Below are positions 11,071 through 38,802 of a DNA stretch of 45,592 bases, piece after piece. A program made the position numbers and the translations under genes. The notes below the pieces were generated by a model that made no database searches, was not told the DNA's origin, and was given only the letters and a program-made list of their open reading frames with translations. The stretch covers positions 1 through 45,592 of the forward strand of contig CALGDE010000050.1 in NCBI GenBank assembly GCA_937883785.1. Reading direction: 5' to 3'. The stretch is from an uncultured cyanobacterium. Its GTDB lineage: Bacteria > Cyanobacteriota > Cyanobacteriia > CACIAM-69d. Numbering within the stretch: the first letter of the stretch is position 1; every line of letters starts with the position of its first letter.

Positions 11071-14000
11071 TTATCGAAACTTGGCGGCTTTGGGGGGACC
11101 GGCAGTGACGATCGCCAATCGGTCCGGCTCAATTAATTGTTGAATGACCTGGTTTACCTGGTCCACGGTGACATTGTTGATGTGATCGCCAAACTGGGTT
11201 AGTTCACCGGGGGGTAGTCCGTGGACCCACGCCATCACCAGGTGCTCCGCCAAAATATCCGGGTCGGCGAGGGTAACCGGATAACTGCGCACTAGGGCTC
11301 CCTTGGCGGCGGCCACTTCCTGGGCGGTGACCCCTGATTGCCGGAGGGTGCCTAGCTCTTGGCGCACCAGTTGGATGGCGGCGTTTACATCCTGGGGATA
11401 GGTTTGAAAATCGATGGAAAAGGGACCGGCCGTTTGCCCTGCCTGAAACTGGCTGTAAATGCCGTAGGTGAGTCCGTGGCGATCGCGCAAAGTGCGCCCC
11501 AATCGACTGGCTAAGGTGTCGCCCCCCAGCAGTTGATTTAGCACCAAGGCGGGATAGTAGCGTGGATCGGTGCGGGTGATGCCTGGATAACCCATGACGG
11601 TGATGGCTTGGGATTTGGCGGCGATCGCTCTGTATATGTGTTGCAGTTTTTCCGGGCGTTGGGGGAGGGCGACTTGCAGCGGGGGGGCGGGGGATTTTTG
11701 CCACTGCCCAAAGGTTTTCTCGATCATCTGGCGCAGGCCACCGGGGTCAATGTCCCCGATAATTGCCAACACGGTGCCGTTGGGGCGGTAGTGGGTTTGG
11801 TGGAATTTTTGTAGATCTTCGCGGGTAATGGCTTGCAGTGTCTCGGCGGTGGCAAAGGTGCGAAACGGGTGACCCGCCGGATACATAAGCTGCTGCGCTC
11901 GCTTGCGCGCCACGTAGCTGGGGGTGTCCAGGCGACTTTGTAAGGTGTTCAATGCCCGTTGGCGATTGCGCTCCAACGCCGTCGGATCAAACTGGGGACG
12001 CTGCAATAAGTCTCCCAAAAACCCCACTACGGCTTGGTCCTGGTCCGCCAGCGCCTGTCCCGCAATAGCCACCCCCTCCCGATGGGCGTGAAACTCCAAA
12101 TGAATCCCCCGGGATTCCAGCGCCTGGGTCAGTGCCCCCTCCGAAAATTTGCCGCTGCCCGACCATAGGCTTGCCGTCGTCAGCTCCGCTAGCCCCGCCC
12201 GATTGACCGGATCCCACTGGTGCCCTGCTGGTACATACCCGGCAACGGTTACCGTCGGCGTACTGTCGTCCCGCACCAGCAGCACTTGCAACCCGTTAGG
12301 TAAGGTCACCACATCGGGAGCGATCGCCGTTGATTCGCCACCCTTCGCCATCGCCTTAGGCAAATATTGTTTTACCAATGCCTCAATATTTTGCGATTCT
12401 GGCGCAAGATCCAACTCCGAAAGCTGGGACCCATTGGGGAAACGCTGGTGGCGCGATCGTCGGTCCCAGCCTTCATCTCCACTAAGTCCCAGTGAATTGA
12501 ACCCCGGTGAATTGGACCCCGGTGGATTGAATCCCGGTGCATTTCCCGCTACCTCAAGCCACCCCACCGTTAGCCGATCTGCCCCCAAATACTCCCGAGC
12601 CACCCGCTGCACATCCGCCGGCGTCACCGTTTCCACCGCGCCCAAAAGGGAATCGCGATAGTTACAATCCGCCAAAATCAAACAATCCTGTCCCAGCCGC
12701 ATACCCTGACTGGTCACATCCCGCTCGTCCAGCAATAGTTGCGATCGCACCAGCACCTTGGCCCGCTCCAGCGCCGCCAAGTTCACCTGCCCATCGCGCA
12801 CCTGCTGGACAGCGCTCAACGCTCGTCGCTGCAAGGTTTCCAACGGCACCCCCGGCAATGCTTCCACCACCAGCTGATACCAGCCTTGATCCACCCCATG
12901 GAACAATAGCCCGTCCACCGTCCCCGCCAAGGGTTCTTCCCCATCCACTAGGGATTGATGCAATAGCGATCGCCGCCCCGTGCCCAACACCCGCGACAGC
13001 ACCAACAGCGCCGCTTCGTCCCCATGTCCTGCTTCCGGCATGGGGTACACCATTTGTATCAATGGATTGGCTCCCGTAAGGCGTAGGGGATTGGCGATCG
13101 TCCCCTCTCCGGCGGGGAGCTCAAAATTAAATGAGTCCTGCGTCCCTGAACTAAGGCGCTCCAACCCAGAGCGCTCCGGGTTAATTTGCCTAGAAATTGC
13201 CTGGGCTGCCCCTACGTATTTTTCGTCAAGGGTTAAGCCTTCGCCGTCACTGTGGGACTGAATGGGGCCGAACAGCCGCCGCACCGTGGCAAACGCCTGA
13301 TCCTGGTCGAAATTTCCCACGATGGTCAGCACCGCATTGTCGGGACGGTAGAACCGACGATAATGCTGTTGCAGATCACCCACGGTCAGGGACTTCACCG
13401 CTTCCTCAGTGCCGCCGATGGATTGGGCGATCGCCTGGTGGGGAAAGGCTCGATCCATCACCGCCTCATCCAACCGATAAGCCGGGTCGTTTTTATAGCC
13501 CGCCAGTTCCGACAGCACCACGGATCGCTCCTGATCCAGGGCCGTCGCCGTCAACGCCGCTCCGGTCATCCGATCCGCCTCCAGGGTCAACAGCGCCTCT
13601 AACTGCCCCCGCCCCGTCGTGTTCACAAAAACCGTACTGTCATAGCCCGTAAACCCATTGGACTCGCTGCCCAACGCTGAAAACAACCAGCCAAACTGCA
13701 CCGGCCTCGAGTTTGTTCCTTTAAATAACAAGTGTTCTAGGGTGTGAGACAGCCCGCTTTTTTCCGGGGATTCATTGCGCGCCCCCACCCGATACCATAC
13801 CTGCACCGACACCACCGGAGTCGTTTCCACCGGTCGGGTGACCACTGTTAGCCCATTTTCCAGACGTACCACCTGGAACCGTCCGCCCTTGGGGTTGGGG
13901 CGATCCCTTGGGGTCCCAACCCCAGACGCACCAAACTGGACCTTCTCCTGTGACGGAAAAGACCCAGTGGTGGAAATCGTAGATGGCGACACTGACGTAG

Positions 14001-14148
14001 AAAGCCCTGATGGATTGGGAGATCTCCCAAGCCACTGATTATTGGAACCCGGTGTGTTTGCGCCTACAACCACAGCCACACTGGCTGCCGCTGCTCCCGT
14101 TCCCAATAACCAACTTAGCCACGAAAGTGAATGCGGAAAACGTGCCAC
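11071..14148 (-). CDS. Fused two-domain M16 zinc peptidase
   Basis: A 1025-residue protein with an N-terminal hydrophobic signal or anchor (about 12-30) and a Ser/Gly/Pro-rich spacer to about 90. The first M16 domain has the inverted zinc motif HTLEH at 135-139 and the downstream Glu segment ERSVVLSELAGYK, so it should be active. The second M16 domain, starting near VVTLPNGLQVLLVRDD, has LAELTTASLW where HxxEH would be and so is probably the non-catalytic partner. In many bacteria the two halves are separate neighbouring genes that form a heterodimer; here they are one chain. The linker carries short repeats of the type PGFN/PGSN. It probably degrades peptides at or outside the inner membrane. 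Confidence 0.9.
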   Translation of the reverse strand: MARFPHSLSWLSWLLGTGAAAASVAVVVGANTPGSNNQWLGRSPNPSGLSTSVSPSTISTTGSFPSQEKVQFGASGVGTPRDRPNPKGGRFQVVRLENGLTVVTRPVETTPVVSVQVWYRVGARNESPEKSGLSHTLEHLLFKGTNSRPVQFGWLFSALGSESNGFTGYDSTVFVNTTGRGQLEALLTLEADRMTGAALTATALDQERSVVLSELAGYKNDPAYRLDEAVMDRAFPHQAIAQSIGGTEEAVKSLTVGDLQQHYRRFYRPDNAVLTIVGNFDQDQAFATVRRLFGPIQSHSDGEGLTLDEKYVGAAQAISRQINPERSGLERLSSGTQDSFNFELPAGEGTIANPLRLTGANPLIQMVYPMPEAGHGDEAALLVLSRVLGTGRRSLLHQSLVDGEEPLAGTVDGLLFHGVDQGWYQLVVEALPGVPLETLQRRALSAVQQVRDGQVNLAALERAKVLVRSQLLLDERDVTSQGMRLGQDCLILADCNYRDSLLGAVETVTPADVQRVAREYLGADRLTVGWLEVAGNAPGFNPPGSNSPGFNSLGLSGDEGWDRRSRHQRFPNGSQLSELDLAPESQNIEALVKQYLPKAMAKGGESTAIAPDVVTLPNGLQVLLVRDDSTPTVTVAGYVPAGHQWDPVNRAGLAELTTASLWSGSGKFSEGALTQALESRGIHLEFHAHREGVAIAGQALADQDQAVVGFLGDLLQRPQFDPTALERNRQRALNTLQSRLDTPSYVARKRAQQLMYPAGHPFRTFATAETLQAITREDLQKFHQTHYRPNGTVLAIIGDIDPGGLRQMIEKTFGQWQKSPAPPLQVALPQRPEKLQHIYRAIAAKSQAITVMGYPGITRTDPRYYPALVLNQLLGGDTLASRLGRTLRDRHGLTYGIYSQFQAGQTAGPFSIDFQTYPQDVNAAIQLVRQELGTLRQSGVTAQEVAAAKGALVRSYPVTLADPDILAEHLVMAWVHGLPPGELTQFGDHINNVTVDQVNQVIQQLIEPDRLAIVTAGPPKAAKFR
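12494..12541 (-). repeat. Short in-frame tandem repeat in the M16 linker
   Basis: Degenerate 15-bp units encode successive five-residue blocks APGFN, PPGSN, SPGFN and SLGLS between the two peptidase domains. Each unit is a variant of CCCGGTGAATT on the plus strand. It probably arose by slippage and works as a flexible spacer. Confidence 0.7.
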
Positions 14149-34596: not shown

Positions 34597-34664
34597 CACC
34601 TGCTGCTTAGTTAACAGGGGCACTTACCACGTACACATTATGCCAAGTGAAAGAGGTCACCGTT

Positions 34665-34967
34665 ATGTTCGAAGTCATTCTATGGCTTTCGCCTTTCGCC
34701 TTTCTCAGCTCCGTTGTTCATTCCTGCTCCCCGCAGCCTCAGAAACTTTACGGCTTTATTCCGCCTGAGGGGTATCCAATGCGGGGGAAAGTGATTAAGG
34801 ATATCACTTTAGAAGGCGGAAGGGTTACTTTCAGGGGGTCTGACTGGATCGCGCGAGCCTTACAGGGAGAATTGATTCCAAAGGATTCTGTAGTCCAGAT
34901 TGTGCGGCAGGAAGGTACAACGCTGATTGTGAAACTCCTTTCGCTTCCTGCACAAAATGACCGTTAA
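34665..34967 (+). CDS. Small NfeD-like OB-fold protein
   Basis: A 100-residue protein from the ATG at 34665, with AGAGG 8 bases upstream. The first 20 residues (MFEVILWLSPFAFLSSVVHS) are hydrophobic and act as a membrane anchor or signal. The rest (GKVIKDITLEGGRVTFRGSDW, IPKDSVVQIVRQEGTTLIVKLL) follows the pattern of the soluble OB domain of NfeD proteins. Full NfeD proteins have several membrane helices and often sit beside a stomatin/SPFH gene; here only the OB part with one helix exists and no SPFH gene is near. Family assignment is by pattern only. Confidence 0.65.
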   Translation: MFEVILWLSPFAFLSSVVHSCSPQPQKLYGFIPPEGYPMRGKVIKDITLEGGRVTFRGSDWIARALQGELIPKDSVVQIVRQEGTTLIVKLLSLPAQNDR

Positions 34968-35525: not shown

Positions 35526-35750
35526 ATGACCAAAAAAGCCAATAGACCACGCAAACGCCTCAACTTGGATCTAAATCCCGATGCCTATGAGCTTCTGCAG
35601 AAATTGTCTGATGAGTCTGGCAAGAATATGGCTGAAGTTTTGAGAACAGGACTAGCCATCTATGGTATTGCACAGGAAGAAGGAGCCAAAGGACGCGACT
35701 TGGCGATTGTGGAAGACGAAAAAGTTGTCAAGCAAATCCTTGTACTTTGA
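35526..35750 (+). CDS. Ribbon-helix-helix (CopG/Arc-type) regulator
   Basis: A 74-residue protein. A basic start (MTKKANRPRKR) is followed by a short strand LNLDLN and two helices, PDAYELLQKLSDESG and NMAEVLRTGLAIYGIAQ, the classic RHH dimer fold that puts the strand in the DNA major groove. The C-terminal 20 residues are acidic. AAAGGAG lies 13 bases before the ATG, a long spacing. RHH proteins are often antitoxins, but no toxin gene follows, so it may be a stand-alone repressor, possibly of itself or of the large gene at 36106. Confidence 0.85.
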   Translation: MTKKANRPRKRLNLDLNPDAYELLQKLSDESGKNMAEVLRTGLAIYGIAQEEGAKGRDLAIVEDEKVVKQILVL

Positions 35751-36105: not shown

Positions 36106-38802
36106 ATGGACCATTTGTCAGGTGAAATGTCGGAGGCGATCGCTCCGGGACAGCACGAAGAAGCGCAGGCAGAGTATTGGAATGGCTTGCGTCAGGAGCT
36201 GAAGCGCTATAAAGATGAGTTTGGAGCCACAAATATTGAGCTATCCCAGGGATTAAGGATCAGCCGCCAACCCCTTGTGTCTTTTATGCAGGGACAGCGA
36301 GAAGACTTGCCCATTCAGCGAATTAACTTGATGTACCTATGGGATGATCTGACATCTGAAGAAAAAAACAGATCAAAGCGACTATCCCAGGTCAAACGTG
36401 ACAAGCGACGGATGCTGGGAATCGAAGACCGCAATCAGCTGCTAAGGGTGGCTGGTTTTTTTGTCAGCGACAATAAAGGGCTAGATATTAATGTCGAACG
36501 CTATCAACATATTCAGCGTTTGGTTTCAGGGTTATCCCATCTTCATGCTAGCGATGATGGAAGCTTTATCAATATTGTTACTGCTCTCGAAAGAGAATTA
36601 ATTTCTGAAGCCTTCGGTCCCCACTCCGTGTCTAATCATGCTGACCATGCCCGAAATGTCCGCAGATTCTTTCACGATATGCCTGTTCGCGAAATAGAAG
36701 AGTGGATAAATGATTGGTCATCGAAATATTTAGCCATTCCGCCAACGTCTGTTATCCAGAAGAAATTTAATCAAGCGATTTCGAGAATTATACGACGAGG
36801 GAAAGGTCAGATAGAAAACAAAGAGATTTTTGAGTTATATTTATCTATCCTTGAGAACAGCAGAATTAGCGATAACTCACCCTATAGACATAAGGTTACC
36901 CATTGTCAATTTTCGGATATTAGTTTCTCAATCTCTAGTTTGGAGCTTTGCAAGAGCACAGATTTAAGGGATGAACTTAATCAAGTTTTTCTTGCCGCTG
37001 AAGAGACCTTACGGTATTCGTCTAGGTGTATAAAAACCATCTTTTCTGATGAGAATGGTCAACAAAAGTATTTGGGAAGTTGCTTGTCTGAAAGGGAAGG
37101 CGACGACAGAAGATACTATCTACAAAATTGTGTTTCTGAGTACGTTGTTGAAACATCTATAGTGTGCTCTTTGGAGGAACGTAAATCATCAAAAAGAGAA
37201 AATCTAAAACACATTAAATGGTCATATAGTTCTTCTGACACCCATTATCAGAATATGTTTACAGCGATTTATCGAGGGATGGGCTGTGCTGATAGTTTGG
37301 AACTCATTGACTTTTCAACGATTAGTCTAGGAAACGAAACGAATAGTTTGGTTAAGTCGTCTACTAGCTTCAAGCGAGATAAAAAGCTGTATCAGGGAGT
37401 TTGGGTAGAGGAAAGTGCAATTCTTGGTACGGCTAAATCTGTGCTCGCGTCGATTAAAAACTGGCTAGTTGATTACTTTAATGCTCCTAATAGCCAAGAT
37501 CAGAAAGTTGCTTACTATGATTTTTATTTTGTTTGTCAGAAAGTTGCACAAATAGATGAGGAATTAGACCATGCTTCTGAAAAAGTAGGTCAGTATGCAT
37601 TTAAATATGGTAATTCAGACTTTGGAGAAACAAACCCAGCAGGGCTGTCAGAAATTATTTTAAGAATTAACAATATCAAAAATGGTATAAGTTCTTGCTC
37701 AATTCCTAGTGCTTTGGGCAATTGGTATCAAATTCATCTCGAAAAACAGGAGTGTCGTGCCCTATTGAAAAGCGCTCGCTCTTGTTTTGTTGGGGGACAA
37801 CTAAAGCAAGCAAAAGACTATTTAGATAAAGTTTTTGGGAAGTTAGATGATCCAAAAGTTTCTGTCGATAAAACTATTGGACTGCAATTAGAATACGAGA
37901 AAAATTTATACCTTTGTTATTCGGGTGATCGCGATTTTATAGGAAGAAGACGGTGGCGAGAAAGCGCTGACCTTCGCTTTCAAGAGCTCAGGAATCACAT
38001 TTACAGTTGCAACGCCTTAAACGAGCCTAAGCAGTCAGGGCGCGGTCTTTTTGACAAGCAAACATACCAGTGTGCAGCGTCAATATTTGCTCGTTTGGGA
38101 CGTTTAGAATGTACTTTCGCAACCTCTGTGGAACAGGATTGCTTAGAGAAAGGAGCGGAGTACCTTTTGATGGCAGCATATTGCGTTTCTAAGTTGGGAA
38201 AACGTTCACGCACTGCGCATTACTTAGCAAATGTAAGCCGTATTTATTGTCGCTTGGGAGATGGTGAACGTGCCGAAGCGTTATCGAAATTAGCTAAGTC
38301 TATTCTAGAAAAGATGGAGATGCATTCTTACAATGAACACTACAAACGTTCAGCTTTTGCAGAAATTGAGATTAGTCTTGGGGAAAAGGAATTACTGCTG
38401 GATAAGCAACCAGAGAAGAGCCTGGAACGTTTTGGAAAATGTCTGGCGGGGGCTGCTTATTTAGGATTTGTTAGGCTTCTAGCAGATTCCTTATACGATA
38501 TTTCTCGTGCAGCAAAAGATATTGATGCGCCTTTGAAACCAGAGCTATTGTATGTGAGCCGCTGGAACGATAGTGATCGCCCTCAGTCCAATCCTATTGT
38601 TCTTGACGTCATGGAACAGCTCGAAGCATTTGTTCAAAACAGTTGTACTTGGGCGGAAGCTGCGCCCTTTTTAAGGGAACAAGCCAAGGGGATTTGGGAC
38701 CGATGGGCAAAGGACGTTAGTGGTAATGAGAAGGTAAGGCATCCTTTAGCCATTGATATGGAGAATGGGCAGTATCTTTGCTGTGTAAAGGATGCTTTTT
38801 AA
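36106..38802 (+). CDS. Large HTH plus helical-repeat protein of unknown function
   Basis: An 898-residue protein (ATG at 36106; a GTG lies at 36103). Residues about 25-70 look like a lambda-repressor-type helix-turn-helix: WNGLRQELKRYKDEFG, then TNIELSQGLRISRQPLVSFM. The middle (about 110-590) matches nothing I know. The C-terminal third has TPR-like helix pairs: ARSCFVGGQLKQAKDYLDKV, TAHYLANVSRIYCRLGDG and EKSLERFGKCLAGAAYLG. No membrane segment. It is more AT-rich than the flanking genes, which suggests transfer. The layout recalls regulators that sense a ligand or protein through a helical array, but function is unknown. It converges with the pentapeptide gene. Confidence 0.85.
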   Translation: MDHLSGEMSEAIAPGQHEEAQAEYWNGLRQELKRYKDEFGATNIELSQGLRISRQPLVSFMQGQREDLPIQRINLMYLWDDLTSEEKNRSKRLSQVKRDKRRMLGIEDRNQLLRVAGFFVSDNKGLDINVERYQHIQRLVSGLSHLHASDDGSFINIVTALERELISEAFGPHSVSNHADHARNVRRFFHDMPVREIEEWINDWSSKYLAIPPTSVIQKKFNQAISRIIRRGKGQIENKEIFELYLSILENSRISDNSPYRHKVTHCQFSDISFSISSLELCKSTDLRDELNQVFLAAEETLRYSSRCIKTIFSDENGQQKYLGSCLSEREGDDRRYYLQNCVSEYVVETSIVCSLEERKSSKRENLKHIKWSYSSSDTHYQNMFTAIYRGMGCADSLELIDFSTISLGNETNSLVKSSTSFKRDKKLYQGVWVEESAILGTAKSVLASIKNWLVDYFNAPNSQDQKVAYYDFYFVCQKVAQIDEELDHASEKVGQYAFKYGNSDFGETNPAGLSEIILRINNIKNGISSCSIPSALGNWYQIHLEKQECRALLKSARSCFVGGQLKQAKDYLDKVFGKLDDPKVSVDKTIGLQLEYEKNLYLCYSGDRDFIGRRRWRESADLRFQELRNHIYSCNALNEPKQSGRGLFDKQTYQCAASIFARLGRLECTFATSVEQDCLEKGAEYLLMAAYCVSKLGKRSRTAHYLANVSRIYCRLGDGERAEALSKLAKSILEKMEMHSYNEHYKRSAFAEIEISLGEKELLLDKQPEKSLERFGKCLAGAAYLGFVRLLADSLYDISRAAKDIDAPLKPELLYVSRWNDSDRPQSNPIVLDVMEQLEAFVQNSCTWAEAAPFLREQAKGIWDRWAKDVSGNEKVRHPLAIDMENGQYLCCVKDAF

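Follow-up and report, generated by a model that had tools for sequence, protein, structure and literature searches.

The window analysed here is a stretch of 45,592 nt of DNA from an uncultured cyanobacterium (GCA_937883785.1, contig CALGDE010000050.1). It carries a gene encoding a large protein of 898 residues, whose features are listed below together with one of the neighbouring genes.

35526 to 35750, plus strand: neighbouring gene encoding a 74-aa RHH (CopG-like) protein, syntenic in a sister species
36106 to 38802 (stop codon included), plus strand: gene encoding the 898-aa HTH/TPR-like protein, with a conserved start and under purifying selection
36178 to 36360, plus strand: Cro/C1-like HTH (approximately residues 25-85), recognised from a profile match to 8tac, sub-threshold matches to HTH_26/HTH_3 and dN/dS
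36439 to 37380, plus strand: middle region (approximately residues 112-425), recognised from columns conserved across the family
37693 to 38730, plus strand: TPR-like helical array (approximately residues 530-875) with 13 predicted helices, recognised from the model m0eb56aae763a and its structural matches

The 898-residue reading frame, already described at these positions in an initial annotation of the window, was confirmed by comparison with a sister species (locus L002 of genome G387), whose copy exhibits 76% identity to the window protein across all 898 residues. An alternative GTG start is present in the same frame, 3 bases 5′ of the ATG at 36106; the DNA match to the sister species starts at ...GAGAGAGTGATGGACC, indicating that this ATG is conserved, and residues 1-21 of the two proteins are identical. 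Between the two species, dN/dS reaches 0.086 over the gene as a whole and drops to 0.021 in the part encoding residues 1-110, which correspond to the HTH part, where the constraint is strongest. The full-length conservation of the sister copy and the dN/dS of 0.086 indicate that we are not dealing with a chance ORF and that the 898-aa protein is under selection. The deviating AT-rich composition mentioned in the same annotation was also recovered, the gene having the lowest values (GC 0.414, GC3 0.372) among the 31 window genes checked. The sister copy, which is syntenic, is as AT-rich (GC3 of 0.364) and a homologue present in one further genome, G211, is likewise lower in GC than its neighbours, indicating that this AT bias is old, with no sign of recent transfer.

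The gene order ruvA–NfeD-domain gene–RHH gene–898-aa gene is identical in the window and in the sister species, in a comparison that covers the upstream side (the sister contig stops just past the gene). The NfeD and RHH ORFs are the only conserved small neighbours at the sister locus. The former (34647-34967), located between ruvA and the RHH gene, is a short ORF encoding a NfeD C-terminal domain alone and is retained in the sister species with a dN/dS of 0.19. The 74-aa RHH protein shares 93% identity with its sister counterpart, exceeding the conservation of the 898-aa gene; a relative (63% identity) adjoins a SbcC-like gene in genome G573 (locus L092). The RHH protein was considered as an antitoxin-like partner and rejected, a relative being present in another genome without the large gene beside it. 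The comparison of insertions at ruvA was uninformative, the flanks having diverged in the other genomes of the window's family.

The N-terminal segment of the 898-aa protein fits the canonical Cro/C1 pattern TQxELSxxMGVSRxxVxxFL, with eight invariant residues (T42, E45, L46, S53, R54, F60, L68 and P69). The corresponding scores are weak: a profile of ten family members matches the designed DNA-binding protein 8tac with an E-value of 0.0029, and several members match Pfam HTH_26/HTH_3 below threshold (best E-values of 0.022-0.025), missing the gathering score. At the other end of the protein, the model of the helical array has a mean pLDDT of 57.9 (about 80 over model residues 151-210) and its structural matches are mostly TPR proteins (LGN, KLC1, NASP, PlcR and Rap), with Z values of 9-12 that, among helical repeats, may reflect a shared arrangement and not kinship. 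Pfam TPR_12 also matches the protein, again below threshold. The lambda-repressor-like HTH and the C-terminal helical array proposed in the initial annotation are both supported at this level, as a Cro/C1-like and a TPR-like element, respectively. A full-length AF2 model (pLDDT 36.6), built from a two-sequence alignment only, which explains its poor quality, was unusable over the middle region and was set aside. No transmembrane segment was detected by hydropathy in the 898-aa protein. The whole architecture is retained in full-length homologues; one of them, a 960-aa protein in genome G549 (L077, 6060-8942), apparently has a duplicated HTH segment at its N-terminus, the additional copy being degenerate.

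The protein had been described as belonging to no recognisable family, and this holds for Pfam, NCBIfam, PADLOC, PHROGs and PDB sequences, none of which contains a family covering it, middle region included; a literature search retrieved no paper describing this protein family. A Bacteroidales match of 37 residues falls within an unrelated ORF and was judged to be due to chance. The middle region retains invariant residues among homologues that share only 22-27% identity. This conservation, the lack of any family match for the region and the weakness of the HTH match leave room for a catalytic or scaffold role, in which the HTH-like part would bind protein or RNA and the main activity would reside in this unexplained middle third. 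We nevertheless consider a non-regulatory scaffold or enzyme to be unlikely, the HTH part being the most constrained of the protein and following the canonical Cro/C1 pattern, and no catalytic motif being recognisable.

Among known regulators, the HTH pattern and its placement correspond to those of the Cro/C1 (XRE) group (HTH_3/HTH_26), whose members are usually small, whereas the 898-aa protein is large and remains below the Pfam thresholds. STAND/SARP-type regulators with TPR sensors are likewise large and combine DNA binding with a TPR sensor, but their P-loop NTPase or BTAD domain was not found by Pfam in any member of the family; for the P-loop NTPase that characterises STAND proteins, eight members were searched with E-values up to 10, without match.

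Full-length homologues of the window protein, of about 840 aa, are cyanobacterial. A homologue is present in 5 of the 386 genomes of a phylum-wide sample, including that of the window, and in two of the six genomes of the window's family, both from the window's genus. In a large family that includes Nostoc-like genomes, the full-length gene was detected in 29 of 218 genomes, and gene remnants were found in genomes G481, G537 and G437. Two homologues, both from Nostocales, are plasmid-borne (Fischerella AP018301 and Nostoc NZ_CP040290); none was found in the phages and viral contigs searched. The same Nostoc plasmid carries dpdK and dpdD (7-deazapurine DNA modification; L012, 1539-4421) at about 7-10 kb from the homologue. 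In our tree, the window, sister and G211 proteins form a deep branch with 22-26% identity to a Nostoc clade, the members of which share at least 47% identity with each other. The copies of the Nostoc clade mostly cluster by genus, with common flanks, and these flanks vary between genera. The tree and the flank pattern point to patchy gain or loss, and the possibility, raised at the outset, that the homologues correspond to a core gene of cyanobacteria can be dismissed. In the window's genus, the gene is old and vertically retained.

In the Nostoc clade, small genes are located upstream of the large gene, in divergent orientation and with a fixed distance and orientation (34 loci). They encode a protein of ~127 aa (15 of the 34 loci), a single-TM protein of ~67 aa (10 loci) and a multi-TM (2TM) protein of ~75 aa (27 of the 34 loci); in genus g72, a different protein of 110-125 aa replaces the ~127-aa protein in first place. 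None of these small proteins has a Pfam match, and profile comparison indicates that the ~127-aa protein is unrelated to the large one. The ~127-aa family was detected in 19 of the 218 genomes, all of which also contain the large gene, intact and adjacent in 14 of them and decayed in the five others, which all belong to genus g147 (hypergeometric test, 2e-18, a value that ignores shared descent). The ~75-aa multi-TM family is present in 155 of the 218 genomes and is common without the large gene. Its members, which end with ES(L/F)R, are often multi-copy in Nostoc-type genomes (e.g., G338:C1:5428546-5428770), and the family is absent from the whole genome of the window. None of the cassette partners was found at the window, sister or G211 loci. 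A recurrent partner, for which a survey of gene neighbourhoods had been suggested, is found in the Nostoc-type clade only, in the form of the ~127-aa protein and the small membrane proteins, and is lacking beside the window gene.

The succession of a HTH at the N-terminus and a TPR-like array, with small genes beside the regulator as in the Nostoc clade, is also the arrangement of RRNPPA receptors (PlcR, NprR, Rgg, PrgX and AimR). These receptors contain 5-9 TPR motifs, have an N-terminal HTH in their DNA-binding members and are usually encoded next to a propeptide gene (PMC9765709). A cyanobacterial counterpart of this group would bind, via its TPR array, a peptide secreted from the small neighbouring gene and re-imported, and the C-terminal model does match PlcR and Rap, among others, in structure. 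Such a counterpart appears improbable to us. The 898-aa protein, which is cyanobacterial and has no sequence match to RRNPPA proteins, is two to three times larger, and its conserved extra region of roughly 300 aa has no counterpart in their compact HTH-plus-TPR architecture. As regards the RRNPPA superhelix, we observed a modelled helical array with TPR matches, at a pLDDT of 58 and with Z values within the common range of helical repeats, which may reflect a common arrangement only. The adjacent Nostoc proteins (67-127 aa) look unlike signal-peptide propeptides, no propeptide-like gene was found beside the large gene and the window gene has no such small neighbour. Considering the long conserved middle region and the lack of a propeptide-like neighbour, we did not file the protein as a RRNPPA member.

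The small TM proteins of the Nostoc clade, the patchy occurrence of the large gene, its two plasmid copies and its decayed copies in several genomes could alternatively evoke an anti-phage or abortive-infection sensor, in which the HTH would repress or the TPR array would sense, and the small membrane proteins would be pore-forming effectors. PADLOC yielded no significant match for the large protein family (best E-value of about 0.006). Among 57 proteins encoded near the homologues, PADLOC matches are few and nearly all come from one or two proteins, the matched families being presumably of kinase/ATPase types. The Pfam content of these neighbours is mixed housekeeping, with metabolic, transport and signalling genes. 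A survey of these neighbourhoods for defence genes had been suggested initially; those sampled (57 proteins, without random-locus control) show no defence island, which makes such an island less likely. The frequency of the 2TM family in genomes lacking the large gene, the lack of any partner adjacent to the window gene and the vertical maintenance of this gene in its genus also speak against a defence function, which we regard as rather improbable. Of the two readings proposed initially, that of a new regulator stands and that of a defence-type sensor is not supported; the gene is most likely an unstudied regulator.

The intergenic region located between the large gene and the small genes of the Nostoc clade contains two GTAN8TAC palindromes. 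We counted 45 of them in 34 intergenic regions, against 5.6 expected from shuffled sequences and 5.0 from the background rate. Each of the two palindromes lies ~21-22 nt upstream of a TTTAAT-like −10 element facing its own gene, with mirrored spacing. The Nostoc-group cassette looks co-regulated. A GTAN8TAC box separated by 22 nt from a −10 box corresponds to the NtcA class II layout (PMC3898017), and the spacing observed in the cassette resembles that of NtcA-activated promoters of heterocyst-forming cyanobacteria. These boxes, known from sequence, are putative sites to which NtcA could bind, or to which the HTH protein itself could bind instead. No GTAN8TAC box is present upstream of the window, sister or G211 copies, and the NtcA-type layout is accordingly missing at the window gene. 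With neither cassette nor palindromes in the window and the sister species, the logic of the cassette is not simply transferable to the window gene.

Taken together, these data probably describe a signal-responsive HTH–TPR transcription regulator, from a family missing from the libraries used. The protein would be cytoplasmic, its N-terminal Cro/C1-type HTH would bind DNA, and the TPR-like array, together with the middle domain, would bind a protein or a small ligand, switching DNA binding or oligomerisation. In the Nostoc-type cassette, the promoter of the regulator would mirror that of the small partner genes, which encode a ~127-aa protein, predicted to be soluble (or a ~120-aa protein in one genus), and membrane proteins with one and with two or more TM segments; the GTAN8TAC boxes at both promoters would fit either NtcA-mediated activation (nitrogen control) or control by the HTH protein of its own expression. 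In the window's genus, where the gene stands alone downstream of ruvA, the targets would have to be elsewhere. A more speculative proposal, which we put forward tentatively, is that heterocyst-formers possess an undescribed cassette in which the HTH–TPR sensor both controls and is switched by the dedicated ~127-aa partner and the membrane proteins, with a tie to nitrogen status via the paired NtcA-type boxes, the window gene being a stand-alone relative with a new fold in its middle region.

The family defined here would correspond to large regulators missed by current domain libraries. The small partner exclusive to the large gene and the clean divergent promoter make the question testable in a laboratory Nostoc: should the boxes prove to be sites of NtcA, an accessory module would be added to nitrogen control; otherwise, the regulator's own operator would be obtained.

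Elsewhere in the window, a Rfam scan detected a single tRNA and nothing else, and the most GC-rich part contains a 1025-aa ORF (11071-14148, minus strand) resembling a two-domain M16-type zinc peptidase.
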